Shown: piece after piece, positions 1-56,585 of the stretch
Layout of the letters: each line of letters starts with the position of its first letter
Numbering within the stretch: position 1 is the first letter of the stretch
NCBI GenBank assembly: GCA_017506865.1
Contig: JAFCMP010000168.1
Coordinates: 1-64,000 of the forward strand
Direction of reading: 5' to 3'
DNA length: 64,000 bases
Source of the DNA: Tribonema minus
Taxonomy: Eukaryota > Sar > Xanthophyceae > Tribonematales > Tribonemataceae
Position numbers and translations under genes: made by a program
Notes under the pieces: model-generated
The model's database searches: none
What the model saw: only the letters and a program-made list of their open reading frames with translations
Told to the model about the DNA's origin: nothing

Positions 1-49
1 CAAGGAGTGCTGGGTGTACCTGGTGCAGGTGCGCGCGAGGGGGGGGGGG

Positions 50-495: not shown

Positions 496-797
496 GATGG
501 CGGCGGGAGCGAAGCGCAGGCCGTAGGCGAGCTCGGGCGGCGCCGCGCGTAGCGCAGCGGCTTTGACTGTCTCCCTGGCTATTGTTGGACCGCTGCAGGC
601 TTGCCCACACACGTCGCTGCGTCTCCCTTGCCAGACCACGCATTCCCTGTCCCCCATGCGCGCACAAACCCATTCAATATGCCATAGCTGCTGATGCATG
701 CTCACAACATCATGGGTACATCAGGAGTCAGTACTGATCTGCTCCTGCCCTTGCGCCCAATGCGTCATGCGCGCTGCGCGCCGCCTGTGTGCAGGCG

Positions 798-6700: not shown

Positions 6701-6733
6701 TGACGATTATCACACTGATAGAAGTATAGCGCT

Positions 6734-6780
<47 letters not shown>

Positions 6781-11523: not shown

Positions 11524-14500
11524 TTACGGGCACGCGGGTCGCGCCGTCCGCACCGCCGTGTTGGTGCTGTCCGTGGCCACGCCGCCGCTGAGCGCGATGC
11601 GCGCCATCATGCCCGTGTCGCTGCGCGCGGAGCGGCGGAGACGGAGGCAAACGACGGCGCGGCGCGGCGCGGCGTCAGAAGTGACGTGCAGGTCGGCCGG
11701 CGTGTTCGGCGTGCGAGACCGCCGTCGCTGCTGCGCGCGTGAGCACGGGCTGGCGCGTGTGCGTGGCGCGCCGCCCTGCGTCTGCGCGATGTCGCGCGGG
11801 CGCACACACGCCGCCACCCCGTTGGCCACTTCAAAGAGCTGCAGACATCATCCAGAGATGGCTCGACACGGCGCAGAACCGCGTCACGATGCACGTCCGC
11901 CAAGTTGTGGCTGCGTCAACTGCGCATGCACACACCAGTTCCCGGTCTGCCAGCGGCATGCGGCGCGACGAAAGCGTACCATGTAAATCGCATGTAGCAT
12001 GGCCTGAGGTGGTAGATTTTCGATGAGCAAGAGGTTGCAGGCTTTGCAACGACACGCAAACCAGTTGATGATGCCTTCGCAAAAAAAAGGCAGCCCAGCA
12101 TGCCTGCGATCAGGCATCCGCACCTGTGCTCGAAGACGTGGCAGTGGCAGATCATGTCGCCGCCGTACCGGTCGACGCGGAACTTGACGATGCCCGTGTC
12201 GGCCGCTGCGCATGCACAGGACCGCCAGCGCGCACAGCGGCAGCGCAAGATGTATGCACGTGAGCAGGCTGGCTCGCAGTGACAATTCTGGCATCTTGAC
12301 CCGGCCATAAAACACACGCGTACTGTGTGTATGCGACCCAACAGCTGTTGCCTCTCAGTGGTCCTTGGTGAATGTTAGCTGGTGATTTGCAGCAATTAGA
12401 TCTGAGGTTGCGCATGGTGCTTGGTGGAGATTACTGGTGCCATGGAGGAAGTATGGTACGCATTGCATGGCATTGGATGCTTGGGTGCATGACTGAATGC
12501 ACATTCCCATTTCGCCATCAAAGGCAAGCAACAGACAATGTTGCACATTGCCAAGTGTGCTTGCGTAGCAGAATGTGATGGGTTTCTGGACTCTTGAAGA
12601 TTGACACTGCCGTGCATGATATATGCAGCGCATGAATATACATTGTACTACTTAAAAATTTAATTAATTGAAAGTTGTCTTCGGATCCTGGCCTATTGAT
12701 GTATGTTGCTATGTATACGCAGTAGGAATTATGTGCAAGCTATAAATACATGTTGTAAACCATGTAGGAGATCTCATGGTACGCTGGTCGGCGACCCTGG
12801 TCATAAGCAGCTTAAGCGCAGCACGCCATCTTGTCCGCTTCAATTGCGAGCGACGCCCCTGTACCTTGGACCTGTTGCTGCAGCCCTGCTCCTCTTGTTC
12901 TGGGCTCAGCAGACAGGCACTCTCCTGAGCAAGTCATTGAAATTGTAAATCTTTTTCTACCCCGGAAATATACATTTGGAGCTGATCCTCTTCTCTACCC
13001 TTGGAAAAATATATCTGGAGGGGTATGAATACCTAGTTGTATTTTTGTGATGAACATTTCACTCCAAGATTCTCATCTTTAAAAAAGGTACCAAGAAAAA
13101 CTTGGAACACAGTCTTAGTTAGGTGATACAAGCTGAAAACAAAAAAAACTGCTGATAAAGAAAATCTCATGCACTTTTGAAAATGGAAGAAAATGCAGCG
13201 CAATGATTGATTGACAATCCAAGTAGCTAGCTTCTAAGAAATGAAGCAGATTTCGCAAGCAGGAGCAACAGACTTTGATTGAAGCCGATTTCGCAAGCAG
13301 GAGCAACAGACTTTGGTTGCGCATGCAGGTCCTTGACTCTTCGGGGGTTTCTTCAAATGTTTGTCATGGAGTCCACCTTTATTACGGCCCTTTGGCCCGC
13401 CTGGGAAAACCGCTGCGGCCATGACATGATGCGAACAGCAGACATGCGATTGGGGTTGAGCGGTGCTGCAGGCAGAAGGCTCACATGCAAACGTGTCAAG
13501 CCAGTCGCCCGCCTTGTACCAGTTGGCCACGCCACCCGCCTCGTACGCGGCCTGCAGCTGGAAGTGGTTGACGTGCCTGCGAGCAGTGCGGGGGGGGGGG
13601 GGGGGGGGGGGGGGAAGGGGGGGGGGGGCAGGATGCTTCAGCAAACGCGCGCAACGTCAGGGCAGAGGGGGAGAGAGTGCCAGATGCGTACGTGTGCGCG
13701 ACGGAGCGTCGTGCGCATGCGAGCGCGCTGCCGTGCACAGCGACGGATGCCCCGCTGCAAGGGGGCGGGGTGGGGTGGGGGGGTGGGAGGGGCTGGGGGG
13801 GGGGCACCGTGCTCAGATCTCATCACAAGCACACCTGTGCCCGCCTCGTGAATGCGTGCGGCGCGGACCCAGAGTGCGCTGACAACGCATGCGACGAGCA
13901 CACGCTGTGGCAGCGGCTGCGACGTGCGTGAATGGCGAGCGCGGGACGCAGTGGATGTACGCATTCGTTTTCTACGAGAAGGCTGCGAGAGCGCGTGCGC
14001 TCTACGTGGCCCGGGTGCAGCGGCGCGCGGCAGAATGCAATGTCGCTGGTCGATGCAGCGCGCTGCGGTGCTGCGCTGCACTGCGGCGCGGCGCGGCGTC
14101 CGACCGTCGGTCACAGCGCTTCGCGTCACGGCGCACGCGACGCCACTCCCCGTGTAGCACTTACTGAAGCACATGACTCTGATTCGACGCGTGTCTCTGT
14201 ACAAACTACTCCCGAAGAAAACAGCAACGGGAGCGAGAGTATAGGCATGCGCTGCAATCCCGCATCGGCGACCCTGCTAGGGTGCGGCAGCAGCTACACG
14301 TATATGTGGAACTGGTGATTTGGAGAGCGTCTCTGCACAGAGTACTTGTAAGAAAACGAGAACAGACGAGAACAGCTTGAGCAGGTGTATGAGCATGAGC
14401 ATGCGCTGCAGTCCCGCGCGCATGCACCGGCGACCCCGTTGGCGCGTGGCGGCGGTTACACGCACATGTGGGGAACTGGCAATTTGGAGAGCGTCTCGGC

Positions 14501-17500
14501 ACAGGCTGCTTCTGAGAAAACGAAAATAGCATGAGCAGAAGTATGAGCATGGGCACTGCAGCGCAATAGTAAGAAAACGAGAACAGACGAGAACAGCTCG
14601 AGCAGGTGTATGAGCATGAGCATGCGCTGCAGTCCCGCGCGCATGCACCGGCGACCCCGTTGGCGCGTGGCGGCGGTTACACGCACATGTGGGGAACTGG
14701 CAATTTGGAGAGCGTCTCGGCACAGGCTGCTTCTGAGAAAACGAAAATAGCATGAGCAGAAGTATGAGCATGGGCATGCGCTGCAGGCGCGCGCGTGCAC
14801 CGGCGACCCCGCTAGCACGGTGGTTACACGTACAACTGGTGATTCGGAGAGCGCCTCTGTAAAGAGTACCTGTGAGGAAACGAAAACAGCATGAGCCCAA
14901 GTATGAGCGAGCGTGAGCACGCGCTGCAGCCGCGCGCGCGCGCCGGCGGCCCCGCTGGCGTGCGGCAGCAGCTGCACGTACATGTGGAACTGGTGCTGGC
15001 TCGTCCCCGCGATGGACGCCTGCGCGGCGACGCCCTCCGCGAATGGGTCCTTGTTGAGGTACGGCGTCGCGGCGCCCTTCCAGGACTGGTCGTTGATGGC
15101 GCCGTTGATGAGCGTGATGGCCAGCGAGTTGGCCGCCGCGACCGTCACGGGGCGCAGGTCCGACAGGTAGAAAGGCCTGGGGCGCGGCGGGGCGCGGGGA
15201 GAGGGCGCGCGCGTGAGCGCTGCGCGCGCGACAGTGGTGCGCATGGGATCGGACGCCGCGCCGCGCAGTAACGAGAGGCACGGGGTCGACGAAGTGCGGC
15301 GGAGGCGACGCGCGAGACGTGTGATGACGGCTCTGCGCGAGTGAACGGCGCGCGCGCGGCATCGTCCAGCATTGGTCGCATCGAGCGCTGAGCGTTGCAG
15401 ACGGAGGCCGCGGCAGCCATCGTAGGCGCGCAAGCTCGAAGCACCGCACGTTCTGAAAGCGCCACCTTGGCGATGGCGTCAGGGATGTCGGCCGCAACGG
15501 TGACGACTGGTTGCAAGTTGTGGCTAACCCTAACCCTAACGCTGTCCCTAGCCCAAACCTAGCCCTAACCCTGCAAGTTGAGGGACTGGCGTGGCAGCAG
15601 GACGGGGACAGCGGCGGCTCCGTGCGAACTGCAGAAGGTGCAGAAGCGCTGCGTCCCGCGCTGCACTCTCACAATGGCAGATCTCAGGCGATGTAAGAGC
15701 TCTGAGTTGCCGCCGTGTCCGGCGCGCCGCGGCGAACGGAGGAACCGCGCGGCGACGCCTCCTGAAACGGCAGTCATGACCGACCTCGCATGCTGCCTGG
15801 CCCCAGCGTCGGGTCAGCAAGCCCAGAGCATGAACAGGTGGAGGGATAGGCTTGCGAGAGCTGGCACCATCCACTGACATGCCGTCCCCTGTTTTGTAGC
15901 AATGTAGGTGTACCTTGCCACTCTTTGAGCGGCACACACAGGCAACAGGCCCCCATGGAACGGCGCCATATGCACCAGCTCAGAGCAGTGTGCTGATGCG
16001 CTCGGCTGTTGCGGAGGGAGAAGTCCTCTAGGCGGATTTGACGTCAAGCGTGATCGAAGCCTTGGGCCCGCGTTGCTGTCATGGTACAACAGACCCTCCA
16101 GGACCATGTTCATCACCTCAAGTGTTGCACGCCCCGAGCGATTGCTACAGTAGACATTAACACAATACCTGCAGGGCTTCCACGCGGGCAGCGTGGCGGC
16201 GTCGACCGCGGTGCCGGCGGCGACTGTGAGCGTCGCCACCTTGAGCTTGGTCGTGAACGACACAGTGCTCAGCAGCACGCTGTATGTGCCCGCCGTCTTG
16301 CAGTACAGGGCGATGTCCACGCGGCTGCTGATGGAGAAGAAGAGGTTCGTGTAGACGGTGCCGGGGGCGCTGTCGTAGACACCTGCCCGGGGGGGGGAGG
16401 AGGGGGGGGGGGGGGGGGTTCGAGTGCTGAGCACTGCAGCCATTGTAAAATGCGCACTTGATAAGGCCGACGGCGCGGGTCCACGTGCGGCTGCGAAGGA
16501 AGGCATGCACTGCAGTCACCATACAATGCGCACAACGTGCAATGCGCGGCAAGGTCAACGACGCGCGGCTGCAGAGGAAGGCGAGGAAACGGTTGGTGCA
16601 GCCTGCGCCTCTGCTAATTTGCTGCATTGCGACGCGTGCGGCGTGCAGTGTGGGGCGCAAGCTGCAGTGTGCGGAGGCTCGACGTCGTCGACGTCAACAA
16701 AGTGCAGCATGCACAGCCGTAGCGCGTGTCATAGGCATGTGAGCGCGCTTGTCGGCATAACGCAAGATCGCGGCTAAATCATGTGGCCAACCCTTGCTGT
16801 GAGCTGTGCACCAACTACTCAAAGACACCGTGCTGCCGATGCGCAGAACGCATGGGGACCGCAAGAAGCAATTGCACGCGGCACACCAGCCTGCCGCACC
16901 AAGCATTTGCCGTCCCAGGCACTTCAACAATGGGGAAACGGTGTGTGTGCGTCTCTGCGCCTGCGGCTCTGTTGGAATATGATACATTCCTGAGCATCTA
17001 CGTTAGTTAGTGTTGGAATATCATTCATTCTTGAGCATCTTTGCTGCTTGCTCTTAGGAGTCTCCGCCCACATTCTGGCAAGTTCTAGACATGTCATGCC
17101 CCGCTCCTGCTCCGCCGACATGGTTCAAACAATTGTGCATTCTGATCACCCCTCTGCTCCCGCGCGAGCCGCCTCCAGCGCCTCTGCTTCCTCTGCTGCT
17201 ACAGTATGCATCGATAACGGCGTGCCCTGCCAGCGCACCACTGGTACCTTCCCAGTGCACGTACCGTCCTTGGCGAGCAGCGCCATGATGCAGGGGTCGC
17301 CGCCGCCCTGGTTCTGTATCGACACGAGGGCGTTGTCGAGGCGGCCGACGTGCAGCATGCGCAGCCGCGTCCACTTGCCGAGGGTGATGCTCATCGTGTA
17401 GTCGTCGCAGCCGTTGGTCAGGTAGTGCTTCGCCGTCGCCGTTGTGTAGAAGAGCTGAGCGCGCGCGGGGGGGGGGGGGGGGGGGGGGGCAGCGCATCGC

Positions 17501-20500
17501 ACCAATGCTCATCCGTTGTCTTTGATGTTGCCAAGTGGCACTTTCCCGCGCACGTGGACATTGCAGTGCCATGTGTGTTCCATCAGATCGTGCAACACAC
17601 AATCGTGCACAACTGCTGTCGGCGATCAGGAGAGCGCAAGCGTTGCTGCGACGTGCCGGCCCGCCTCATGCCGCCGTCGTAAAGAAGAGCTGCGCGCGCG
17701 CGCGCGGGGGAGGGTGTGGGGGGGGGGGGGGAATAGCGCTCGCACCAGCGCATCAGCGATCAACGAGCGGCAGCAGAGCGCTGCCATGGCCGTGAGGCAT
17801 GACGGCGAACCTTGTGTTACAGAAACGCGGGGTGAGGCGGCGCGTTGGCACGGATGTTGCAGGTAGGGGCGCAGGACAATGCTAAGAACTGCAAGCGCTT
17901 GTGCTTCCGCAACACGTGAGACACGTTTCGAGAGTCTGTACTTCGAGACGTGCTCCAAACCATCTGTGGGGCTTGCCAGGGCCCGCACTCCCGAGGAGCG
18001 TCGTCTGTTGACCCTCGACCAGATACTTCCAGCTCATACTTCAAGTGCACTTCAAGTAGTTGAACTACTTCATGGCGCCACACTCACGTCGTCGCCCATG
18101 GCCGCCGCGGTCGTCTGCAGCGTGTCCGGGTCCACGTACTGCAGCACCACGTAGCGCGTCGGCATGGAGCCGTAGATGGCCGGGCGCGACGCGATCGCCT
18201 CGAATGTGGGGTTGTCGTCGACGCGCAGCAGGCCGACCGCGCCGCCGCCGGCCTGCAGCGTGACGCCGCCGTGGTGGTGCGCGTGGTAGAAGTGCGTGCC
18301 GCCTGCGCGCGCGCGCGCACGCGAGAGGGGAAGGGGGGTGAAGGAGCGGAGGCATGCGCACGCGCGCGCGCGAATGGCATCTCAGAGGCTCCGCAGTGCC
18401 TGCGTGGGTGGACTGTCCGATAGCAGGCCGCCGCCGCTGCTCAGAAGGGCCTAGTTCGTGCATTGGGGGCGCGCGTCACGTCACGGGGGGCAGCACACAC
18501 TGCGACGGGTGTGCCCGTGCACACGCCGCACGATGCTCGCCGCGCATGCTGCAGATGCAAAAGTCGTATCGGAGCCGTAGCTGGCCTGGCTGGGCGCAGG
18601 CAGCGTGCGCTGTCAGCTGAGTTTGCAGATACGCTGTGAGTGCACGCATGACACGAACATGACAGCCGCTTCTCTTGCATTTTTCAGAGGGGTCCCCGCC
18701 CCTCGAGCAAAAGTAAGACCAGTACTGGAGCTGCAGTCCCATACCGCATGTGGTCAGTGACGCCGACCAAGCGCCTGGGCGGGACTCACCGGCGTGGTCG
18801 CAGGGGATCGCATACGTGTACACGGCAGACTCCCCGCGCGCCACCCTGCGTGCGCGCGACGCAAAGCGAGCAAGAGGAGTGAGAGAGAGAGCAATAGAGT
18901 TTACATCACCATGTGCAAAAGCAGCGCTCAGCACAGGGTGGGCAAGGGGGTCCATGGCAGACGGCAACTCGGCGCCCCAGACAGGCTCTGCTATCGCTGT
19001 TGCTCGTGATGGTGGCAACGCGCGCCATCAGCAAGAGTCTGATGTCAACGCGCGCTGAGGCGGCGCGGCGCGCGATGCGCGTTTGCCGCAACAGAGGAGA
19101 CCTCAGGCCCGGCAGGCACCACATCCTAGCGCCCCTCTTTGCAGTTCAGGCAAAGCCAGCAGCAGCAGCAGCAGCAGCTGATCCATTTCGATTGACATGG
19201 CACAAGAATGCGACAGCTGCTGCTGAAACCCAACAGCTCTGTGACGGGGGAAGCCCCCTCCTCGGTCGGTGACAACCGCCTCGACCTCTGCACAGGGGCG
19301 TGCGAACCGAAAGCTGCAGCAGTCAAAAGTAAGCTTCAGCTCGCTGGGGACTGGAGATGAGCGCTGATGCGCGGCCACGCCCTCGCAGCGCTCGTGCACT
19401 GCGGAGCTGCAAGAGGCACCACCGCAGCACAGCAACCGAGCGACGCTACCACATGCAGAGCGACGGCAGCGGCGGCGGCGCGCGGCGACGCGCCCCACTC
19501 ACTCGCGCAGCACGTTGTCCGCGTTGCCCATGCCGGAGACGTGGAGGCCGTGCGTGTGGAGGTTGGTGGTGGACGGGTTGGTGAATTGGTTGAGGGTGGG
19601 GCTCGTGGGGTCCGCCCAGCCGCTGAGCGTGTTCTTGAGCGTGAGCTTGTACACCTTGCACGCCTGCAGGCGCATGAGCGGGCCGGGGATGCCGCCGTTG
19701 TAGCTGCGGCAGCGGGGGGGGGGGGGGATGGAATGCGCGAACGTGATGAGAAGCGGCTCGCCTTCTGATACCGTGCTGCACGTTTTTTTGCGCGCGGCAG
19801 GCTTGACGTGTAGGCTGTAACCTTTTGTGCAGCCGCCTGTGGAATAGACGGGAGAGGCTGCAGATAGCCCTGCGCTTTTCATCAGCGGGACGAAGATGCC
19901 GTTGGTGCAGCTGCAGGGAAGGCGCTGGGCCCGGGGGGGGGGGGGGGCGCAGAGCTTCTGATGTACTCAAGTATGCGCACTGGTCGCGAGGGTACAGAGC
20001 AGTGCTGAGTGCACCATTAGAACTGTTCGCTGACAGTCACAGTACACTGCCTAGTAATGGCGCCTGGAGGCGCTGCGCATGGCTCAGTTGGTAGCCCTAC
20101 CTCGATGGCGTGAGCAGTCTAGAGACTGTCACCACGAGCACTCCCTGCGTCACAGCACTCCGCTGGCAGTGCTATAATCGGTCGTAAAGTGCCCAAAGGC
20201 GTCAACGTTTGAGGTGCCTCGCTTCCCGGCGTCACATCACGTCACAACGGACCAAAACTCCCCAGTGGCGGAGCCACGTGTGTACCTGACCATACTTTAT
20301 TCGCGCCGGCCCTGCAGCAGCCTGCCGCACTTTTACCATACAGCGGCCCACACGGTCTCCGATCGTGTCGCAAAACCGCAAAACAAGAGTTGCTGTGCAA
20401 GCTGCCTCATGCACGCAACACCAGTTCTGCCCCCGCACACCTGTGCACCTTGTGCGAGCCCGCTACCTGTTTTGTGTCGGCCGGCAGCATGCAGACTGTC

Positions 20501-23500
20501 ACGGTTGGTCTGTCTGAAGTTTTTTGACACGACCGTGCACCTTGTCGCAGGCCCACAAGCCTGTTTGGCATCAGCTTTTGCTTTCTTGCGGCACAGGCAA
20601 AGCCGCTCCGGCGGAGAAGACATCGCGCACACGCACGTAACGCGCGCCGCCGTCCTCACCCGCGCGTGCGCGTCGTCCCGTACTTGTTGGTGAACTGTAT
20701 CGCGCCAAACTCCAGCGTCGCGCTGAGCGTGCCGTCGGCGTTGGTCGTCCACGCGAGCGCGCCAAAGTTGTCTGTGGCGCTGCCGACGGAGCACGTCTTG
20801 CTGACCATTTTCACGGGCAAAGTTCCCGCGGGGGACGGCGGGACGCCCGGCGCCGTTGGCTTGGCGGTGGTCGGGGCCGGGCTGGGCCCCGTCTGCAACA
20901 AGCCGTGGAGGGGAGAGGCAATAGGCGTTACATAGTACAAGGGGAAGTTTCTGCAGATAGACTTTGGGCAAACAGCACCGACGCAGGTCTTGCTGAGGTG
21001 GTGCAACAGTGCTCAGCCGCCTGAGCTCTCCTTGGCTGCGGCCCCTCCTCATGTTTCCACTGAAGGCCAGCCTCTCTGCTGACACTGCTGCTGGATGCAG
21101 AGCGGCGCGCTGCACACGGCACGTCCGATACCGCGCCCATTCTCGCGGCAGCGCACGCCGAGGATGCGCATCGCACAGCGCCGTTGCACAGGCAGGGCTC
21201 GGGTGGCGCGCCTGAGGCTGGATACCTGACCTTGAGCGGGCCCTAGGGTCTACTGCAACAGTGCGTGACGCTCCATCGAGGGGGTTCACAGCTGAAGTTC
21301 TAGGGCGCCAAGCGCCGACTCACCGTGGCCGTGGACGACAGGGAGATGATGCGCGCGTGCTCGTAGTCCAGTATGTAGACCTTGCCGGAGACGGGGTGCA
21401 GCGCGATGTGCGAGATGCCCACGTCGCCGCCCGCCATCAGAGCCTTGACTGCGGAGCACTCGAAAAGGGAGGGGGCGGGGGGCGGGGCGGAGGGGGGCAC
21501 AGGAAGTCAGGGGAGATGCGGGAGGGGGGAAGGCAAGTCGGCACGCAGGCTACCCCGCAAGAAGCAGGCTGCTGTGTAGGCCTTCTGATATATCTCACAT
21601 AAGCGCGTGACGTGCATCGGGGATACGCGCAGGCTCGAGTAGCATCTTTGAGAGGCGCAGCGTTTGACCACAGGTTTGGTGCTGCTGCTTGCGGTCCATG
21701 ACACTACCATTGGGACTCCTGCAGGCTGCTTACCAAATAAACACCAAGATGCGCTCTCATTACCTGACCCACATACATAACGCCGCTCAAGGCTCAGCAT
21801 GCCCATCACGACTGTGATGCTGTGCGCCCGCACGTTGATGACACATCGCAGCTCAATGTCTGTACCACATTGTCACCACTCAGACTAGAAGTATCGAGAT
21901 GCATGCGAGTACGTGGACTAACGCGGAAGCGCAATGCCAAGAGCCGGCAGATCATGCCGCTTCACAGAGGCAGAGTTTCGAGGGCGTCGCCGCACTTCAT
22001 GCTTCTAGTGGCGCACGGCAGTGCTCACCGTTCACCACCTTGCCCTTGGAGTCCAGGGAGCCGTAGAACAGGCACCGCTTGGCGTGGTCAGAGAAGAAGA
22101 GCTTGTTCCGGTACTTGGTGCCCATGCCGCTGCCCTGGTTCCAGAGTATCCTGCACGGCACCGGCGCGCGCGTCACTCTTCTTGAACGAAATTGCCATTT
22201 TCGCTTGGAGGCGCAGCAAATGCGCACGGCGGCTGTCGGTAGATCATTCATCATCAACAGCATTGCAGTATATACTTGGAGCTCAAACGCATGCACACGG
22301 CGGCCGATGGTGCACGACGCAAAGCGTGTGTCGTTTGCGACACCCGCGGCAGCTGGCAGTGAAAGCAGAGCACCGCTGGGCATGCGCGCGCTACTGGCCG
22401 AGGCGATGCTGCTGACGGAGACAAGCGCTCACTCGCGGTGCTGCCGCGGCGGCCCGCCGGTGCGGTGTCATTGCTCCGCGTCGAGCCAAAAGCCGGCGTC
22501 AGTGCGCAAAACACATCATGCAGGAGCGCATCTGGCGGTGCGCCATTGTTGTCTGTCAGCACATGAGCATCGCTGCATACCTCCACGTACAGCACGAGGT
22601 CCGGGGTGCCGCTGCACTCTGAGTAGCAGGTCGAGAAACTGCCAAGGAGGTAGCAGCGTACGAAGCTGCTATGGAGCAGATGGTCAGCGTACACGCGCTG
22701 CGACGCAGTGTCGCACTCCCCCAAAACACTACAGGAGCAGCCAGTCAACCAGTACATCACACTGCTGCACAGCGGAGGATCGCGGCGCCGCGCACCCGCT
22801 CACGGCCGCCCTGCTGCCGCTGCAGTCCGGGTAGCTGGGGTCGGGCAGGTCGCGGAACTCGTACGTCGGCGAGAAGTAGTTGGGCTCCGCTGTCACGCTG
22901 TTGACGTCGCCCACCCACCACTTCTGGTCCACGCCGGCGGCCTGCATGGGCGGGAGGCAGCGAGTCGGAGTCAGAGTCAGAGTGCGGGCTGACGGGCGCA
23001 CTTCTGCGTTTTTTTCCTGATGTCGTGAATTCTTTCGCTCGTGCGCACGTGGGACGCCTCCGTGCTATCCCATGACCACGGCACCCATGCTCGAGCTGTC
23101 TACGGTCACTTGTGCACCAACCTATGACAATCACTGTTAAATGTGTCATCCAAGAGCGGCGGGCCACAGGGATGTCGCTGCCAAACCTGGGCTGACAGTG
23201 CCCCTCCCCCACCCCCCACCCACCCCGCCCCTCCCTCCCCCCCCCTGCGCGCGCATCTGTATCTCGTGCGCTGCGCTCAACAACTGATGTGCTGGCGCAG
23301 ACGACAACGCTCTCTCGTCGAGAGCTCTGCCACTGCTTCGCAGCCAAGTGCGTTGCGCCCAGCACGTGCCGACGCCGCCGTTGCTCCAGCGAAACCACTG
23401 CACTTCGTCTGTTTCTGTGACACATATGACACCGCGACCGCACATGGCACACGGGCCACGTTATCATCTTGTACCAATTGTTGAACCCGCCGCACGCGCC

Positions 23501-45700: not shown

Positions 45701-48700
45701 CTGACAGTACAATTGCAGTCATCAGTTTCATATACACTCCTTACTCTTATACGCGTCAACAGCTTCGTTGCTGTCTGCTGTACATTCGCCGATTCAGCGA
45801 CACGTTGGCAAGGTCACCCGGCAGCTGGGATCGTCACAAAGGGCGCCTTTTCGTTATAGCATGCACTTCACCATGGCATTTGCGTTGATTGGCTGCTTCA
45901 AATGAGACGGCCTCGCAGTCCGCAAGTGCTCCTGGTGCCCGTCTATACGAACGAGCGCATACGGGCAATGCGCTGGCAACCACAGGCAGCGCCCTGCGTA
46001 TGCACAGCGCAAATGAGGTGCAGGTTGAAGTCACTTTCTGTTGTGCCATTGTTCATATGCGCAGCGTGTATTACAACATGGGCGACAAGCTGGGCGGCCG
46101 CTTTCAGAACAAGATCTTCTTTGCGGACCACGAGAAGCAGTGCCTGTTCTACGGATCCGTGGACGACAATGGCAAGATCGTCAATGGTGAGCACTGCCGT
46201 GCGGACTGCTGCTGTAGTAGTTGGGCAACGGCAACATGCATGTTTAGGTGGCTGCGCTGCTCCCCTCAACGAGCGCTGTTGACGGGGTCACGCAGCATCA
46301 GGTTATGGTCACTGTTATTGCATACAATTTCTTGCAACAAGACAAATTCACTTCAGAAACCGACAATACAATTCCACATCAGAAAATGATATCTGTATAC
46401 TGCGTCCCCTCCGCACAGTAGCGCGGAGTGCAGCGCGTGTCTTGAAGCGCTGAAAGTGCTTCACAATGTTTTTTTTGTTGCTTACGCTGCCGAGCGTTTG
46501 GAGTTGCCTAGCGCAGCATACAGCCCGTTATTTGTGTCCAGGTTGTCAGGGCTTGTCTGCCCAACCCAGCAAAGCCGACGCACCGAGAGTCTGCCGGTTT
46601 AAAACTTTGAGTACTCAACCACATTCTCTGGAGGGCGTTGCATTTTCAACACGTGCTGCACGTGTTTGACAGCGCTGGCAAACGAGCTGGTGGCTCAACA
46701 TGTCGGTCAGTGAGGCTTGCCACACTAGAGCGCTGATCGGGCTCTCCCCCCTCCCATCCCCCCCCCCCCCCCCCCCCCCTGCGCAGTGCGCTCGCTGATG
46801 GAGAAGGGCGACGTGGGCATCTCGCAGATCACCACGCACCCCACCACCGGAGCGCTGCTGCTCATGGACTACCAGCGCTCGCGCATCATCTCCATCACCA
46901 CCAAGACGGATGTGAGTGCGGCGTTTGCCCCTCAATCATGTGTGTAGTATGAATGACCGCAGCAGCGGCGACCACGGTCATTGGTGGAAGGCACTCGCGG
47001 CTGACCACTCCTTGTCACCTAGAGCTCTACGCTATTTTGAATCGTTTTCATGCATAATCAACTACTGCGCGCTCCCTGCACCAGCAATGCCTATAGAAGC
47101 GCCGGTGGAGCGAAGTGTGCTGCAACGCATGTCCGCTGGCTCGCACGAGCGCTGTGCGCAGAGGGGGTTTGCGATGTGGCGCCCCTCCCTACCAGGTGTG
47201 ATACTCAGCAGCCGCTTTGCCTCATGGCAGCTTGCTCCCAGCTCCCGGCCGCCAAGCGCGATCCCCCAACATCACCACTCTGTTACAGCGAGTCCTGCTT
47301 GCACCCAGTAGGCCCCCGCTGCAGTTGTATGTCGGCCAGCGCTGTCCCCACAGCGCAACACGCCTCCTGATGCTTACCCCGGTCCTCTCTGCCACGAAGA
47401 CGGTGGATTTTTCCACTGGTAGCAACAACTCCACGAAGACTACAGATTGGTGGAAGGCACTCAATCTGACGGCTGACCTCCCCTCGTCGCCCAGAGCTCT
47501 ACGATCTTCTGATTCGTTTCCGTAGATGATGCCGCGTGTAACGAGCGCTCCTCTCGCCTGCGGCGTAATACCTGCAACGCGTCCGCCGATGCTTACCCCG
47601 GTCCTCTCTCCACGAAGACTACATAATTTTCCACTGGTAGCAACGCCACGAAGACCATAGACGACGCCATGGGTGACAACCGCTCCTCTCCCCCAACGCG
47701 TAATACATACCTGCAGGGGCCGGCGCCGGAGACCCCCCCCCCCGACGGCGGTGGCAAGCCCTCGCTGCGGCCGCCCAAGGGCGCCGTCGTCGCCAAGTTC
47801 AAGCCGCAGTGCGCGCTGCAGGGCGAGGAGCGCAACTTCCCGGAGCTGAAGTGGACCCAGGGCAAGGACGGCGTCTTCCGCGCCACGCTCACGCTCGGCG
47901 CGGTACAGTTCGCCAACAAGTGGGGCACGACGCGCACGCGCGGGTGAGGGCGGCGCGCTCATTGCAACAGTGCGTCGCGTGCGCTGACGGCGCGTCGCCG
48001 TCATTGGTAGCGCGCGCGCTCGACTCTGAGGCGAAGGGCGTTGTTGCAGGTGGCGCGTCTCTCGCGGCGAAGTCGCAGAGCGCTGAGCGCGGCGGATGCG
48101 TGTCGCCGCAACGCTCTCTGGTACTGCAGCTTTTCTTTTGAAAGCGTGCTCAATTAACTGGCGGTGCTGGGTGAATTGCGGGATGCGCATTTAGCAACTG
48201 GCGTTGAGGCATCGCCGTGTGCGCGACAGGTCTGCTGCAGCGTTGCTCAGCCATAGACCTCGCGATCCCGCGTGGGCGCTCATCCGCGCTGGCGACGGAG
48301 ACGCTCACCGGGGCCTGCTCCTGCCTTGCCCAAACTGCTTCTGCTGAGGCATGAGTGCCGTTTCTCATTCACTCACACATTCAGTCAAAGTCGTTAATGT
48401 GAGCCAAGGTTGTGGTGGTGTATGGCGGCGTGCACATAACTGCGTAGTGCCTGAAAGCGTGCGGAGGTCACTGCGGCTGCAAGACTCTCTCTCCTGCCGT
48501 TCACCTCAGCGGCGGCAGGTGCTTCTGCGACGCTGTTCCAGGTGCCGACTAGCAGCTTACTACAATGACTGTCTTGATTGTGAGCGCCATCCTCCGATAC
48601 TTTGACAGAATTTGAAGATCGCCTTGCACTGTCAGGAGCATATATTTTTGAAGCACACTTTGGATATGCGCAGAAGGCACTCACGTGCTCTACCGACCAG

Positions 48701-51700
48701 CCCCCCCTCCCGCTCATCCAACCTTAAGTACACAGCGTGCGTACCAGCCAATCAACAGTTCACTAACCCGCCCCTTGCCCCCCCCCCCCTCCCCCCCCCC
48801 GGCTCATCCCGTCCACCCCCCGCGACGCGCGCTGCGCTGCAGCTACAACGGCGGCGTCCCCGCGCCGCTGATGCGGCTGCGCGCGTGCGGCGTGTACAAG
48901 CTCACGCTGCGCAACGCTCAGCAGAAGTGGGGCAACCCGGGCGGCGCGCTGAACGACTTCCGCGAGCCCGCCACCACGAACCTGCACACGCACGGCCTGC
49001 ACGTGTCGGGCATCGGCAACGCGGACGACACGTACCGCGAGTGAGTGGAACGGGTTCGAGTCTGGCTCGTGGCGCCACGTTTCTTGCGGGGATGGCTTTG
49101 TCGAGGCATGCAGGCAGCGTGCTGTGATGTTGTGCTTGCCTAGTGGTGGATCTGCTGTATCAAGCACGACTGTTGCAGTGTGTCTGTATGCACAGTGAAA
49201 TCGTGTACACCCTTGCTCTGCATGGGTTTGACAATGGCACCGCTGACAGCCCGCCCCTCGGAGGGGCGGGGGGGGGGGGGGGGGGGGGGTAATTTGTTAC
49301 AAGCTGATCACTAGCACAATATCTGCTCATGTCACCAAAATGCAGCCAACTTGGACAGGCAGACCAGCTTCCGCTGGTTGGATCTCAGACACAATAGTCG
49401 CAGATGCCATTGCTCCTACTGCAATTAATCACGTCACCAACTACTTTGAGGTATTAGAATTCATTCTTTACAGCTCACCAGTCAAGCACATCCAATCAAG
49501 GCAAGGACAACCCTCGGCTGTGCACGCGCTGTCTGTCGCTGCACTGCTGGCAGCCCGCTCCCCGCGCGTTGCATTTGATAACCGCGCCACAACCGTGACA
49601 GCGCTCACGCTGAGCGGCAGATGCGCATCGCCGGTGTGCGACGCGCCAGCGCGCACGCCGGACGCCTCGCGCGCCGGAGGCGTCCGGCACACGCTGAGCA
49701 TGCGATGCGGACTGCCGTGCGTGCAGCGCAGCAGCGGCGCCGCACGCAGCAGCAGCAGCCGCGCTCCGTGCCATTGCCGCCGTCAGGCTTCGCTGACCAC
49801 GGCCGCTTCCGCAAGGCGATGACGCCCGGCGCTGCATCCCTTATCAGGGACTTTGAGCATGCATCAGCATCCTTCGATTCTGGCCATCATTGAGAATTGC
49901 AGCACCTGCGTTGAATCTGTGATGCATTTGCGCTGAGCGTGCCAGCTGCCTGACAGCGTTCTTGGGGACCTCTGCCCCCCCCCCCCCCCCCCTTTTTGCC
50001 TTGTGTGCGTCGCGCAGGGTGCTGCCGGGGAAGGAGACCGTCTACACGTACGCCATCCCTTGTGACCACGCCGGTGAGCGATTGCCGCTGGCTACTTCTG
50101 TTCACCTCTGTCATTTGTGGTTCGGGGTATTTGATTTGACTTCTACTGCGTCATGTTACTGCTTGGTTTCAATATTATCTCCACATACCATTGTTTGCAT
50201 GCGGCGAAGGACCTCGACGCAGTCGGCGCTTGTCCGTTGAGTCCATGCTGCAGCTGAGCACGCATGCAAGAGAGACACACGATTGCCTGACTCAATGCCC
50301 CTGATGGTCCTCCATGCGAAAGATGTCCCGAGTGTATTAATTTGCGAGCGCTGAGTGGGGGTGTTGCTTGTCCACTGCGTGTTGCTCTCCAGTCATGCGC
50401 CGTGCAACACTGCGTGTGGCCTACATTTGTCCCCTGGGGTACGGTCGGCGCCGCTCAGCGTCCCAGCAGCGCGTTGTTCACACCCGTGAGCACGTGCCTC
50501 TGCCCCAAGTCTCGCCCTGTTGGCGCTCGTGCGTGACACGTACGCGCGCGACCGCGGCGCATGTGCGCGCGGGAGGAGGAGCACGTTGCCCTGAGAGCTG
50601 ACACACTGCGTGAACGCTTCTGCTTGCCTCAACGAAGCACGTGCCGCACTCCACAAAACCTGAGATTTCAGTCGCTTCCCGGAAATGAGGCGGCAAGCAC
50701 ACTGCAGAGTAAGAAAAGCCGCCCGCTGCTTGTACAGCGAGAGTGATGTCCTGTGGAGGTGGTAAGCCTGAACCAGGAAGGGCCAAAAGGCGCCAAAGGA
50801 AAGTTCTGGAGAGACCAGAAAATGTGCGACACACCCTAAACTGACAAGTCATGTGCTGACTGTATAACTGTGGCCAGTCATGACCAGCATGGCCAATGTA
50901 CTGCAGCCTTTATGAGAGGCTGCTACTCCGACAGCTCACAACAGTACGACTGCTCAAACAGCGACGCTCCGCGCACACGCTCGCGCGCCCGCCCGGCCGC
51001 CCGCACGCAGGCGGCACGCACTTCTACCACCCGCACCACCACGGCAGCGTCTTCCTGTCGGCGGGCGCGGGCGCGGTGGGCATGCTGCGCGTGGACGACA
51101 ACCCGACGCTCGAGGCGAACGCGCGTCGCCCCGCCATCTACGGCCGCATGCCCCAGCGCTACCTTGCCTTCCAATTCTTCGACCCGTCGCGCCTCAAGGC
51201 GCTTGCGGACGGGATGGGGGACCAGGCACGTCACCCCGCGGGTTGCAGTTGAAGTGGAAGTTGGTAGGACGGCAATGATCGAGTTCAGTAACATGTTGAA
51301 GCAGAGCGAGTACGTTTCAGTCTACCTCGCCTTCCAATTCTTCGACCCACCGCGCCTCAAGGCGCTCGCGGAGGGGATGGGGAACCAGGCACGTCACCCC
51401 GGGGGGGGGTAGGGTTGCAGTTGAAGTTGAAGTTGGTAGGACGGCAACGATTGAGCTCAGTAGGAGGGTGAAGCGAGCGGTTGACGTAACCATTGTTTAA
51501 TTGCAACGATTGAGTTCAGTACATGAGAGGTTAAAGCAAGAGCGAGTGCATTTGGCAGCGCTACCTCGCCTTCCAGTTCTTCGACCGGCCGCGCCTCGGG
51601 GCGCTCGCGGAGGGGATGGGGGACCAGGCACTCACTCTCTGAAATTGCAGCTGTCAGGATTGCGATGATTGAGTTCAGGAGGAGGTTGTAGCGAGAGCGA

Positions 51701-54700
51701 GTACGTTTGACAGCACTACATCGCCTTCCAGTTCTTCTACCCGCCGCGCCTCGAGGCGCTCGCGGAGGGGATGGGAGGCCAGGCACGTCACCCCACAAGG
51801 AATAGGGTTGCGGTTGAAGTTGAAATTGGTAGGACGGCAATGATTTGAGTCCAGTAAGAAGTTGAAGCATAGCGAGTGCGTGTAGGGTACATAGTGGTTG
51901 AAATGACACGTTTTGGGATTGCAACGATTGAGTTCAGTAGGAGATTGAAGCAAGCGCGGCTGCATTTGGCAGTGCTACCTCGCCTTCTGTGATTTTTTAG
52001 CCCCCCTGCGCCTCAACGCGCTCGCAAAGGGGGTAGAGAACCAGGCACGTTACCACGGAAGGGCTAGACTTGACGCTTGCGCGGTATGGTTTGTGGTTGG
52101 GCCAGGGTCAGAGTTGAGGCGAGAGTGACTGCGTATCGCAGTGCTGCCTCACCTCCCGGTACACATACACTAGCTACGTGTCTAGCTCGTTGAGCGGATG
52201 AGACAGGACCACGCAAGTGCTGTACGTCAGCACTGTCGGTGAGGGAGGGGGGGGCAGGTCTGAGGTTAGCAGATGGGCGGCAGGCAGGCGCGTGCTGCAG
52301 CGCTCATGCGCTTTTATGTGCTTAGCCCAGCTGATTTCTCATTGCGTTGGCAGCCGCGACGAGGGGTCAAGCAGGTCGACAAGCTAAGAGGGTAGGGGCC
52401 CCCATTGATGGCAGACTTGAAGCTCACCCCCCCCCCCTCCCCCCTGCGCCTGCACACGCCTTCCGCGTTCTCGCGCGCAGCTCTTCTACACGACCGCGAA
52501 GCGCAAGCACTACCTGACCAATGGCTGCACAGGCTACACCAACTCGATCACCATCGGCAAGTGGACGCGCCTGCGCATGCTGCACATCGGCCATGGCGCG
52601 GACGCCGTCGTGTCGCTCGTGCGCGAGGGCGGCGGCAAGACCTGCAAGGTGAGTCAAACTCTGCAGTGGTGGTGAAGTGACATTGCGCACAGGTGTCGTA
52701 TCCGCAAGCTTACATCATTCTCTTCCAGCCTCTGCGCCTCTGCATCTTTCAGATCATCTGCATACAGGCTAGGGAAGCAAATCGTTGTATCAGGTCTATA
52801 TGTCTCATCTTTGAGTCAGCGCACCAAGCGTGCACTGTAAGGTCACTGCGGGTGTCGTACGCGGCAGATGACAGTGCTCACCCGAGGACAGCATCTACTG
52901 TTGGTTGCCAACGTGCTGTTCAAAAGCGGTTTGGCCGTCAGCTGCATTTACACCTGAGGCGCAGCACACAGCACTACAAGCAGCTATCGCCGCCAGTAGC
53001 GAATCCTGCAGAGGATGTTTAAATGACGTCAACACCACAGAGCCACGTGGTCGCGCTAGCAATACGTTGCTGCAAACTTCGGGCCGCGTTCCGCCGCCTT
53101 CACCCAGCTCCTTGTGTACTGCAAGCTACTGCTGGTGCAGCAAAGTTGCATCCACATCGCGACTCTCACGGCGCGCCGTACCGCCCACGCCCCACCTAAT
53201 TTCGAAACCGCAAGTCAGCGCTGCTGCGATGAAGGTCTACCCTGCACGTACTGTCAAGCAACACTGCCTTTCCATGTGCGCGCTCACGACGCCGCGCCGC
53301 CGCCGCCGCCACTGCCTGCGCTCAGGTGGCCATGCTCGCCAAGGACGGCATCTACTCCGACACGGTCGGGCGCGTCGTGCCCGCGCAGTTCTACTTCTCC
53401 GTCAGCAGCCGCGTCGACGTCGCGATCTACTGCGCGCAGCCCGGCACGTACAGCCTCGCACTCAAGAACGCGCACTTCCCCAAGCCCGTGAGGCTCGCGC
53501 GCTTCACCGTCGCGCCCAGCAAGGCGGTCAACAGCGCCAAGCTGCCGCTGTGGAAGCCCTGCAGGTGCGCCGCCGCCGCCGCCGCCGCTGCCGCTGCTAC
53601 TGCCGCCGCCGCCGCCGCTGCCGCCGCTGCTGCCGCCGCCGCGGTCCGCGCGCCAGCGCCGCCGTCTTGCGCGCATCGCCGCAAGCTGCACGCGCTTTGC
53701 GGCGGTGCGGCCCTCGCTCCAGTGTCGGCGCATGTGTCGCCTGACAGCTGGGGCTCTGCTGCAGCTGCGTGCCTAGTGTAGGTGGCGTGCACCGATCGAC
53801 ATGTCACGAAGTGCGCTGCTGCCTGCGTGTAAAGTCTCTCAGCAAGAGCTTTACGTTCTATTGCATGCACCCGTTCCTCGATGCTGCCACGTGGAACTCC
53901 CAGTTGCGGCCCGACTGCTCACCAGCTGCAGCCAGCGCGCCCACCGGGGGGGGGGGGGAGGCAGAGGTCTGTTTGCGGATCTCACTGGTCCGATGCATAG
54001 GCACTGCTTGTGTTTGTCCCGACTCACGCCCTGCCTCGCACGCCCACCACCACCTACCCCCGCCCTCGCTCACCCGTGCATTGCATCTGCCGCTGCCGCC
54101 GCCGCCGCCACTGCCGCCACGCCGCAAGCCGACCACCCGCCCCCCCCTGCCCTCGCTCACCCGCGCACTGCATCTGCCACCGCTGCCGCAGGCCGTACTA
54201 CCTGTCGGACCTGCGCGGCCTGCCCGCGCCGCCGCGGACGGTCGCTGTGAGCTTTGCCAACGGCGCCATCAACGGGCAGCTGTGGGCGGGCGCGCGCACG
54301 CCGCCGCTCGCGACGGTCGCCGAGGGCGCGCTCAACGCGTGGTCCGTGACGGGCACGGACGAGCACCCGTTCCACCTGCACGTGAACCCGATGCAGCTGC
54401 AGGCGGCGGTCGCACGCCCGGGCGCGCCGGCGGGGTGGTTCCGCGCGGGCGACTGGCTCGACACGCTGTCGTGTGAGTGGCGCGCGCGCCAAGGCCTTGG
54501 TGCTGAAGGCGCTGTGTCTGTGTCGGTTTGCACGTGTGTCGTCGCCGGTGTGACACAGGTCGTCGACGTGCGGGACGCTCGTGCTGGTGTCGAGGCGCAA
54601 CCGCTATCATCGATCGCACCGCAGCCTTGGCCTTGCAGCGGGGTCATTTGCTCGCTGCAGTGTTACATTTGCTCGCTCAGTGCGTACTGGGCGCGGACGA

Positions 54701-56585
54701 CCTGTACTCCCTCATAACATTGCACTTTGCCAGGCATCTCGAGAGTCAGAGGTGCCTCGAGATACCTGCTGTAGCTTTATGACATCCTCACCCCAGCCGC
54801 ATCCTATTGCTGGATCGCTGATGCGAGTAGCAGCACTCGCCGCAGTCGCACACGGAGGCCTCCCCATGCGAGATATCATAATAATTTACAGGCGTGACCT
54901 CTGATGAAGGTTTACGCCCCGCAAGCACAGGAAATTAGAGTACTACTTTGAAGCACCTTCAAAGCACCTGCAGCAAGCAGCAGGTGGATAATAGCTGACA
55001 TATTGTCACAATAATGATGGGGGGTGAGCCATGGGGGGGGGGCGAGCGTTGTGCATGCTGACAACCGACACATTGTAGGTACAGCAGATTTTAGACAGCT
55101 CACAACGTGAGAAGTGTCTTGACTCAATGCCTATTGTGAATTCACGCATCAAAACTTTGGCACACTGCTCAAGGCAGTGCTTCAAAAGCTTCCACAAGTA
55201 ATTATATATCGGAAATACACTGACACGCTGCACAGGTTGCACACACTGTTGCACAATCGTCAAACGGTGCGCCCTTGTTGAACAATTGTCATGCGGACAT
55301 GTGGTCCATAGTGCGTGCGTCACTGAACATCTCAAGAAAAATCATGCGCGAGCGCTCTCGAGTGCCTGAGCTCGCAGAATCGGCGCACCCAGTTTCAGAC
55401 TGAGACACTGATGTATCTCTATCACCCACGTCCATCACCCCTCCTGCAGCTCCCAACACTGTGAACGTGCGGTTCCGCACGGACCGCTTCGGCGGCAACA
55501 TGATCTTCCACTGCCACATTTACGAGCACAGGTGAGGAAAGAGAGAGGGCTGCGCTGCGCTGTGCTGTGCTGCCGCGGCATGTAAATCTCTGCGTGATTG
55601 CTGTCCGTGCGTGTACTACTTCTGTACTGCAGCACGTGCTCTGGAGCACGTCTGGCAGGAGCTTGGTGCGTCTGTGCTGCACATGAGCTACATCCATCAG
55701 GGCAGCGCGCAAGAGTACTCTCGCATTTTCCGTGAGAGCTCGGCCACTGGGAGTGTTGGTGCTTGCCGCCGGCACAGCAGTCCACAGTTAGCGGTGGTGA
55801 CTCACGTCATGCGCGCATGTAGCCCACAGCAATTGGCAGCAATCATTGACTGCCAATGAAACGGGCCGCGATGCTACTGCAGGGGCCCTCAATGAGGTGC
55901 TCACATGGTTTGCTGTGGTCGCATCAAATGCGGAGCTGGAGTGGTTGTATTACCACATGTGATCGCCTTGTGCGACTGCTGCACAACTGCATCATGTAGT
56001 CGTCATCCGTGGCGTTTTCTTCAAGCACCCGCTTTAGTTCGTGCTGAATGGCAAATAACTTTTGGAGATGTCGGGACGCTTAAAATCACGGTGCGACCTT
56101 TGTTTCCGCATGCATGCAATGTGTTTGCGTCAGATGGCTGTACGCCAACATTTTAATGAGTCCGCTGTGATGCTCTGGACTGGCACACATGTATGTCAGC
56201 CTCTGCACACGCGCAATTTCAAGTGTGCTCAGCACTGTAATGCCGACTATACTGAGCATGTAGCAGGCACTCGACACATGGTAAGGCGACATGGCACGTT
56301 GTCCAGGGCTATTCTGCAGCGCCGATCCGTGGCCATGCTCACAGCGCCTTCGCCATACCCTAACCCAACCCTAACCCTAAACTCAACCCTCACGGCGGCG
56401 GTCGCAGCGACTCCGGCATGATGGGTCACGCCGTCATCACCGGCGGGCAGCAGGCCAACAACATCAACACGAAGGTGCTGAAGCAGGGGCCCCGCTGCAC
56501 GTTGCCGCGCAAGAAGCGGCCCGGCGGCAAGCCCGGCAAGAAAAAGCCGGGCAAGAAGAAGCCGGGCAAGGGAGAGCCCAAGTAA
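36704..56585 (+). CDS. Gene B: secreted PQQ-propeller (glucose/sorbosone dehydrogenase-like) fused to multicopper oxidase, basic tail
   Basis: Twenty exons: 36704-37033, 39856-39934, 40883-41081, 42019-42101, 42713-42857, 43330-43450, 43864-43979, 44706-44877, 45536-45681, 46065-46186, 46787-46911, 47717-47943, 48843-49040, 50018-50073, 51011-51225, 52481-52648, 53326-53564, 54192-54472, 55450-55531, 56408-56585. All phases agree: 1093 aa plus TAA. Signal peptide (1-~22), propeller (~23-546) with GLMSVAFDPQWP, WGHHWSN (His236 or His237), GVRNPY (Arg326-Asn327), FGWPCVEGD; Pro-rich linker (~547-570); oxidase with HTHG (670-673), HPHHHG (713-718), HPFHLH (972-977), HCHIYEH...GM (1028-1039). The end is a KKPGK-type repeat tail absent from gene A. 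Twelve of the exons have exactly the same length as in gene A. Donors after exons 8 and 15 are GC, the rest GT. Predicted role: extracellular sugar or alcohol oxidation linked to O2 reduction; substrate unknown. Confidence 0.89.
37163..37204. repeat. 11-bp inverted repeat in gene B intron 1
   Basis: TACGGGCCTGC at 37163-37173 and GCAGGCCCGTA at 37194-37204 are perfect inverted copies with a 20-base loop, so the transcript could form a GC-rich hairpin. No motif of a known RNA family is recognised. Confidence 0.55.
37372..37505. repeat. ACT/AGT-rich simple sequence in gene B intron 1
   Basis: Runs such as GGTACTACTACTAGTAGG, GACTACTAGTATAGTATAG and TTACTACTAGTAGTAGTC form several small self-complementary stretches. 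This is simple sequence with no gene signal. The remainder of the 2.8-kb intron (37034-39855) holds the dispersed repeat at 38712-39085 and otherwise nothing I recognise. Confidence 0.6.
38712..39085 (+). repeat. Dispersed repeat, copy 2 (pairs with 33655-34025)
   Basis: Second copy of the element described at 33655-34025, in the same orientation and here in intron 1 of gene B. The two copies flank the divergent promoter region by about 2 kb on each side. Stops and frameshifts break any coding frame. Confidence 0.7.
41116..41229 (+). pseudogene. Duplicated, stop-containing copy of gene B exon 3 (3' half)
   Basis: These 114 bases repeat 40968-41081 at a distance of 148 bases. They keep SNYQHTADTCPSYR, CDVLS and EMFS and an intact donor (TTCTC then GTGAGT), but the Trp codon TGG has become TAA (at 41205-41207). 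A possible acceptor (GCCTAG) precedes it. If spliced in, it would truncate the protein, so it is a pseudo-exon or a decay-coupled poison exon. Confidence 0.85.
43075..43290 (+). repeat. Three ~70-bp tandem units in gene B intron 5
   Basis: Units built on GGTGCTCG, CTTCATCTGCACAGCACT and a CC/CG-rich end begin near 43077, 43150 and 43229, each with several differences. They lie about 50 bases upstream of the exon 6 acceptor. No coding role is seen. Confidence 0.75.
43731..43863 (+). repeat. Duplicated polypyrimidine tract before gene B exon 7
   Basis: AACGCCATTGCCGTCCGTCA plus a long C-run (43730-43772) is followed by a second copy with AACGCCATTGCCATCCGTCA and another C-run (43783-43855) that runs into the exon 7 acceptor at 43863. 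The duplicated part is the 3' splice-site region rather than exon. Confidence 0.8.
47371..47716 (+). repeat. Two-copy repeat ending at the gene B exon 12 acceptor
   Basis: 47371-47575 and 47591-47716 share GATGCTTACCCCGGTCCTCT, CCACTGGTAGCAAC, CCACGAAGAC and GCGTAATAC-CCTGCA. In the second copy the end is ATACCTGCAG and forms the real acceptor of exon 12. In the first it reads AATACCTGCAACG and the AG is lost. An insert in copy 1 (TTGGTGGAAGGCACTC...AGAGCTCTACG) itself matches 46982-47040. Confidence 0.75.
51226..52210 (+). repeat. Tandem mini-exon-like array in gene B intron 15
   Basis: The last 69 bases of exon 15 (51157-51225, after an internal CAG) recur at 51321-51388 (68 nt), 51559-51627 (69 nt), 51714-51782 (69 nt) and 51973-52044 (72 nt), with a remnant from 52142. 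Each copy follows a CAG, mostly in TTTGGCAG or TTTGACAG or TTTCAG context. Each intact copy ends CAG and then GCACGT or GCACTC, the same GC donor as exon 15. Copies 3, 4 and 5 are open in phase 0 and encode 23-24 residues like RYLAFQFFDRPRL then GALAEGMGDQ. Copy 2 is one base short. They could be spliced in as cassettes without breaking the frame, since exon 15 ends and exon 16 begins in phase 0. Confidence 0.8.
56357..56390. repeat. Interstitial telomere-like repeat before gene B exon 20
   Basis: CCCTAACCCAACCCTAACCC, then degenerate units, lies 18 bases before the exon 20 acceptor (56407) on the sense strand. It supplies the C-rich part of the 3' splice-site region. A similar CCCTAA block sits in gene A at 15524-15573. 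Confidence 0.8.

Follow-up and report, generated by a model that had tools for sequence, protein, structure and literature searches.

What does an alga do with a secreted-type protein that carries a sugar-dehydrogenase-type propeller and a multicopper oxidase (MCO) in the same molecule? And is it truly a single chain? Both questions are raised by a 64-kb window (the whole stretch of DNA that was analyzed), in which two genes, A and B, lie head to head. A preliminary description had read them as two paralogous fusion enzymes able to oxidize a sugar or alcohol and pass the electrons on to O2. Both models were reassembled by hand from the two strands and checked by translation, and signal peptides, here and in the relatives discussed below, were judged by eye. 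The features are as follows.

35896-11524, minus strand: gene A, 22 exons joined from the raw sequence, 1069 aa
35564-35896, 32218-32296, 31169-31385, 30578-30660, 29874-30018, 28919-28948, 28058-28148, 27297-27412, minus strand: exons 1-8 of A
23792-23939, 22796-22941, 22029-22150, 21324-21448, 20660-20892, 19503-19703, 18790-18845, 18088-18302, minus strand: exons 9-16 of A
17265-17454, 16169-16382, 14982-15176, 13485-13576, 12124-12205, 11524-11620, minus strand: exons 17-22 of A
21324-35896, minus strand: signal-peptide-like N-terminus and GSDH/sGDH-type propeller of A, exons 1-12
20660-20892, minus strand: exon 13 of A, with the linker TGPSPAPTTAKPTAPGVPPSPAG and the first MCO strands
11524-20892, minus strand: multicopper oxidase of A, exons 13-22; third motif HQFHMH, fourth motif HCHVFEHSDTGM with the axial Met
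35897-36703: spacer of 807 bp between the divergent ATGs of A and B, which may be a shared promoter
36704-56585, plus strand: gene B, 20 exons joined from the raw sequence, 1093 aa
36704-37033, 39856-39934, 40883-41081, 42019-42101, 42713-42857, 43330-43450, 43864-43979, plus strand: exons 1-7 of B
44706-44877, 45536-45681, 46065-46186, 46787-46911, 47717-47943, 48843-49040, 50018-50073, plus strand: exons 8-14 of B
51011-51225, 52481-52648, 53326-53564, 54192-54472, 55450-55531, 56408-56585, plus strand: exons 15-20 of B
36704-46911, plus strand: signal-peptide-like N-terminus and GSDH/sGDH-type propeller of B, exons 1-11, aa 1-546
47717-47943, plus strand: exon 12 of B, the bridge between both domains, with the Pro-rich linker GPAPETPPPDGGGKPSLRPPKG and the first MCO strands
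47717-56585, plus strand: multicopper oxidase of B, exons 12-20, with a Lys/Gly/Pro-rich C-terminal tail

The length first given for B proved exact, but that given for A, 1059 aa, was 10 aa too short: the difference equals the length of the 30-nt micro-exon at 28919-28948, whose inclusion restores the match to B. Neither gene has an internal stop, and positions 11524 and 56585 are the stop-codon ends of A and B, respectively. All introns start with GT or GC and end with AG; the two GC-AG introns are both in B (after 44877 and 51225), and A has GT at the equivalent places. Many acceptors are preceded by C-rich polypyrimidine tracts. The exons of B were recovered again when a spliced-alignment script was run on the DNA, after which a paralogue on another contig, C101, was modelled; the profile used was made from the A and B models, and the recovery of B is a consistency check rather than independent proof.

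Bacterial contamination was considered as the source of A and B and ruled out, given their 21 and 19 introns and the light-harvesting matches at C168:377401 and C168:448906, on the contig to which the window belongs. The genome (158 Mb in 554 contigs) contains 92 matches to the light-harvesting family, and because some of them are on C168, the window is taken as algal nuclear DNA. The parts of the window that flank the two genes (1-11000 and 57500-64000) yielded no identified gene, and none of their ten long open frames had a Pfam match at E ≤ 0.01.

The introns have features of their own. Degenerate copies of pieces of adjoining exons occur in intron 3 of B (41117-41236) and intron 8 of A (24064-24226), and others were seen, by eye only, in intron 15 of B (∼51320-52050). 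The exon-3 copy of B carries an in-frame TAA and is covered by a TRF array with a 148-bp unit (40968-41236). Intron 19 of A contains a near-perfect tandem duplication of 221 bp (14348-14776; 1.9 copies, 99% match), and short, imperfect telomere-like (TTAGGG) stretches are found inside introns of A (∼15520-15575) and B (56357-56390).

How far have the two genes diverged? They are 52% identical over the propeller and 57% over the MCO half, a likeness that, together with the equal GC3 of both genes and the invariant copper ligands described below, exceeds what chance would give. With the NG86 method, dN is 0.41 and dS 0.61, values in which strong constraint is not evident as they stand; however, dS is depressed because GC3 is 0.91 in both genes, and the ratio therefore gives no conclusion. 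At residues shared by A and B, the synonymous mismatch is 0.29 in the propeller and 0.24 in the MCO, the fully randomized expectations being 0.38 and 0.39.

The description of A and B as two paralogues was right about their presence but too narrow, because the genome holds at least eight such fusions. Five nearly complete ones with the same domain order were located by tblastn and spliced alignment on C101, C22, C268, C290, and C457 (C101 lacks an identified last exon, and the other four are incomplete at the N-terminus), and a partial locus on C34 (L036) runs from the end of a propeller into the start of an MCO. The count is a lower bound, since further sites with MCO exons of this family exist beyond those traced upstream. 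The seven paralogues to which the counts below refer are A, B, and the five nearly complete fusions. Viral contigs gave 22 pattern matches for the propeller and 23 for the MCO, with no relatives among them.

Are the two domains really joined, or has a propeller gene been wrongly run into an adjacent MCO gene on each strand, an alternative that the preliminary description had itself put forward? In A and B the junction crosses an intron, and these models are known here from DNA alone, which is what this reading has in its favor. Against it, a single exon in each of three paralogues (C268 891606-892099, C290 413483-413773, and C457 567155-567476) leads from the last propeller strand through a linker such as PPPTAAPTMAPF into the first MCO strands. 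In C22, the linker shares one exon with the second half of the propeller, and the exon plan of C101 resembles that of A and B, with a like junction. As first reported, the exons of A and B are phase-consistent: their order and phases are identical across the junction, and the exon that holds the linker and the MCO start begins with neither a Met nor a signal peptide. How a separate MCO starts can be seen in two unfused members of the same family.

C90:1029984-1032401: unfused MCO (L050), one open frame of 806 aa
C179:401894-404311: unfused MCO (L052), one open frame of 806 aa

The C90 frame begins with the signal-peptide-like MHRLIALLLVSLLSASPCSAQ and passes directly into the MCO. The single-exon junctions, together with the own start of these unfused proteins, contradict the two-gene reading without recourse to RNA data; it is rejected on these junctions and the exon structure of A and B, and we regard it as very improbable. 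In A, B, and their paralogues, the propeller, the linker, and the MCO form one polypeptide, and the layout first proposed (a signal-peptide-like start, a GSDH-type propeller, a Pro-rich linker, and an MCO with four motifs) is borne out by the rebuilt exons, by Pfam, and by the copper ligands in all seven paralogues.

The two unfused frames are almost identical, either as recent duplicates or as haplotigs, and they have a C-terminal extension of an unfamiliar kind. The aligner put one or two short introns inside them, and the frames are nevertheless open throughout. In a tree of the MCO halves they adjoin the fused C457 (IQ-TREE support 63, FastTree 0.90), a placement that lends weak support to a possible loss of the propeller.

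The MCO half is the easier of the two to interpret. Cu-oxidase_3 and Cu-oxidase_2 exceed the Pfam cut-off in A and B, and both models match all seven MCO halves at E ≤ 0.01. The four copper motifs, which in B are HTHG (H670, H672), YHPH (H713, H715), HPFHLH (H972, H975, H977), and HCHxxxH (H1028, C1029, H1030, H1034), supply ten His and one Cys that are invariant in the seven paralogues and that we take to be the full set of type 1, 2, and 3 copper ligands. Among solved structures, the nearest are two laccase entries, 6wcn and 2xu9 (the second carrying the name Thermus thermophilus), and also CueO; these have the same four motifs, ligands, and Pfam families, but the similarity is moderate (best E 4e-25), the algal proteins add an N-terminal propeller, and the axial residue varies within the one algal family: Met in A and B (M1039), Leu in C290, and Val in C22, C268, and C457, while C101 is cut short there. 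By its motifs, this half is of complete laccase type; bound copper and O2 reduction are predicted.

Where does the propeller come from? With the full-length proteins, the Pfam GSDH model (PF07995) scores 32.4 bits in B and 24.7 bits in A, just below the cut-off of 25, and it matches six of the seven propeller halves at E ≤ 0.01; the Cu-oxidase families follow it, the order expected at the outset. Searched by itself, B gives no more than a marginal hit to sGDH (E 0.18), while a profile of the seven propellers reaches it in hmmsearch at E 3e-9, followed by E. coli Asd and HHIP. NCBIfam gives weak matches only, to a PVC-type heme-protein model in four of the seven and to a PQQ-dependent glucose/sorbosone model in two, and none for B.

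Closer relatives are found in bacteria. A scan of prokaryote genomes with the propeller alignment and the pattern N[WMF][GA]WPCxEG gave at least 595 pattern matches, at least 447 of which encode relatives, with record titles from Actinobacteria, Deltaproteobacteria, Chloroflexi, and others among the matches listed. From the best 80 of these relatives, 79 loci were read (L061-L139); the motif they share was the basis of their selection. Aligned with 14 bacterial propellers, the seven algal ones give an hhalign probability of 100% (E 2.1e-49, 400 columns). At a greater distance (26-27% identity) there are plasmid-borne relatives whose annotation reads PQQ-dependent sugar dehydrogenase.

A structure predicted for one of the bacterial relatives (465 aa, mean pLDDT 74, pTM 0.81, 95 of 465 residues under 50) finds its top fold matches in 2ism, 3a9g, 3das, and 1qbi, which are of Asd type or sGDH, with query-normalized TM values of 0.57-0.60. 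Sugar-dehydrogenase quinoproteins come first in this ranking, then HHIP, and then AA12; streptogramin lyase and paraoxonase appear at ranks 46-49. From the profiles, and from a fold modelled on this bacterial relative, the algal propeller is assigned to the PQQ sugar-dehydrogenase (Asd/sGDH) superfamily. The algal genome also encodes a second propeller type: an HHIP-like frame of 527 aa (L001, C21:274753-278640) with a Cys-rich N-terminal part, in which NHNGG and RNPW are kept.

Does such a propeller still hold a quinone? The residues thought to serve PQQ binding and catalysis had been reported as present, and this is true of some and not of others. In sGDH numbering, the equivalents of His144, Arg228, and Gly247 occur in all seven algal propellers (H236, R326, and G345 in B). 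At the Asn229 position, A, B, C101, and C290 have Asn (N327 in B) and the other three Gln. Lys377, which faces the C-7 carboxylate, has a Lys equivalent in six of the seven by the HMMER alignment (K488 in B), a residue that MAFFT shifts by one column and that hhalign pairs with a bacterial Arg (R403 of L061) invariant in all 14 bacteria. In contrast, the equivalents of Arg406 and Arg408, which grip the PQQ carboxylates in sGDH, are each absent from all seven, as is that of Gln76.

The bacterial subfamily shares the His, Arg, and Gly pocket residues and the missing Arg408. Among the 79 loci from the best 80 of at least 447 relatives, His, Arg, and Asn are present in every one, an Arg406 equivalent in five, and an Arg408 equivalent in none; the Arg408 position is occupied by V in 71 of the 79, and a C-terminal VDLxxGPxG is found in many. 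As judged from these residues, the cofactor pocket of the bacterial subfamily departs from the textbook GSDH one. The algal forms differ from it by additional conserved cysteines, the linker, the MCO, and the Gln in place of Asn229 in three of the seven. In the bacterial set just described, an MCO motif was found neither in the propeller frame (0/79) nor in the flanks of the same loci (970,696 bases), and the pairing is therefore left without an independent sign of function from this side.

HHIP propellers, which are not known to use PQQ, provide a control. HHIP is likewise secreted and eukaryotic, with the same fold and the catalytic His, but it has no MCO, and, when aligned through the algal HHIP-like protein, it shows HD where the algal propellers have RN or RQ. 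Because HHIP has lost both residues, the retention of Arg and of Asn or Gln in the algal family goes beyond what a scaffold would need.

This comparison bears on the main rival to a redox role: that the propeller is a cofactor-free module binding a polysaccharide, a glycoprotein, or a metal-bearing matrix, with PQQ lost as in HHIP, and that catalysis falls to the MCO only, as a laccase or ferroxidase targeted by the fusion. The loss of both carboxylate-binding arginines in all seven paralogues fits this idea, as do the place of HHIP among the structural neighbors of the bacterial model, the existence of the MCO without a propeller in C90 and C179, and an axial residue that varies between Met, Leu, and Val as if the oxidase were tuned to substrates of its own. 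However, the catalytic His and the Arg are invariant and Asn or Gln is kept, precisely where HHIP lost Arg and Asn, and the bacterial subfamily that the propeller resembles retains His, Arg, and Asn throughout the set read. A binding module is a serious possibility, albeit one to which we would give distinctly less than an even chance. For the pocket itself, a quinone site with altered carboxylate binding is possible, and a cofactor-free pocket is nearly as likely.

Is there a precedent for a quinoprotein of this superfamily that hands electrons to a partner on its own chain? On the fungal AA12 chain, a heme domain is thought to meet the redox center of the propeller. Like the algal proteins, CcPDH (AA12 with an AA8 cytochrome b) is a secreted eukaryotic six-bladed propeller of the GSDH superfamily that shares its chain with another redox domain; its partner is a heme b domain, whereas the algal partner is an MCO of O2-reducing type. 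Work on CcPDH describes this heme domain (PMC4133262, PMC6881789), PQQ dependence despite the lack of several sGDH contacts with the cofactor (PMC4133262), and contacts through Arg273, Arg621, His539, His560, His363, Arg430, and Asn431 (PMC6881789). When His363, Arg430, and Asn431 are placed on the sGDH columns 144, 228, and 229, the His and Arg are found in all seven algal propellers and the Asn in four; in CcPDH and the algal family alike, several other sGDH contacts with PQQ are replaced. According to PMC6881810, the Arg/Asx pair is ∼94% conserved in AA12, and the catalytic His is absent from more than 25% of the sequences. The analogy has limits. AA12 keeps one C-terminal Arg, Arg621, common to sGDH and Asd (PMC6881789), while in the algal family both C-terminal sGDH columns are devoid of Arg in all seven paralogues, the pairing of Arg621 with one of those columns being our deduction from that paper. 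In addition, the fold predicted for the bacterial relative matches Asd, sGDH, and HHIP ahead of the AA12 structures.

Taken with the quinone-facing residues that are kept, the sGDH-superfamily ancestry, and the intact copper ligands, the CcPDH precedent speaks for a tethered quinone-to-copper oxidase. Several sequence features speak against it: Arg406, Arg408, and Gln76 equivalents are missing from all seven, Gln stands at Asn229 in three, and the NCBIfam PQQ glucose/sorbosone model matches two, weakly. We tentatively consider it the best reading of the fusion, at somewhat under an even chance. If the fusion is such an oxidase, the propeller would bind a quinone cofactor outside the cell, either PQQ of bacterial origin or a related compound, with a grip on the carboxylates that differs from that of sGDH. 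A sugar or alcohol would be oxidized at the retained His/Arg/Asn site, the type 1 copper of the tethered MCO would accept the electrons, and O2 would be reduced to water at the trinuclear center, the linker letting both redox centers meet so that a soluble mediator would be unnecessary. Should the propeller be redox-active, the MCO would be, by analogy with CcPDH, the natural sink for its electrons. The enzymology proposed in the preliminary description is, to that extent, plausible but only half supported by the residues: A and B may use PQQ and may pass electrons on to O2. The picture in full, an algal family of self-contained extracellular quino-copper oxidases that scavenge bacterial PQQ or a relative, oxidize sugars or alcohols, and pass the electrons within the chain to a laccase domain and on to O2, is a conjecture to which we assign well below an even chance.

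Even an active propeller need not be coupled to its neighbor. It might be a dehydrogenase, or another enzyme of the fold, that works independently of the MCO and is merely secreted with it: a long flexible linker is not enough to impose electron transfer, and the fold has non-redox neighbors such as streptogramin lyase and paraoxonase. Yet the fusion is kept in at least eight genes, whose two groups of propellers are ∼30% identical to each other, which suggests that the tether matters, and independent action appears rather unlikely.

As for the literature, a report of PQQ-dependent activity in a trypanosomatid deals with a different, nine-bladed type of propeller (PMC13384848), and the closest parallel in concept is the fusion, in Deinococcus, of a propeller lactonase with a Cu/Zn-SOD (PMC12362111). 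The earlier remark that no enzyme with the present layout has been described is in line with the literature searched, in which no paper on a fusion of a PQQ-type propeller with an MCO was found; this is weak evidence, as most subscription journals lie outside that literature. The architecture is real, it is repeated within one algal genome, and it is undescribed in the literature searched; its novelty is the pairing of the propeller with the MCO.

What would these proteins mean for the alga? If the two domains are uncoupled, there is still a domain architecture, absent from the literature searched, that has multiplied in one algal genome, and its propeller still marks a bacterial GSDH subfamily with a cofactor pocket that is not the textbook one. 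If they are coupled, the result would be a natural one-piece enzyme that passes the electrons of a sugar or alcohol to O2 and needs no mediator, a coupling built by artificial means in biosensor and biofuel-cell research, and, provided that the MCO works as a laccase, it would release no H2O2. Such an enzyme would represent a new oxidase layout and, as a PQQ enzyme of a eukaryote, would have a carboxylate pocket different from those of sGDH and AA12; it would also extend the use of PQQ to an alga and tie that alga to a bacterial vitamin supply.
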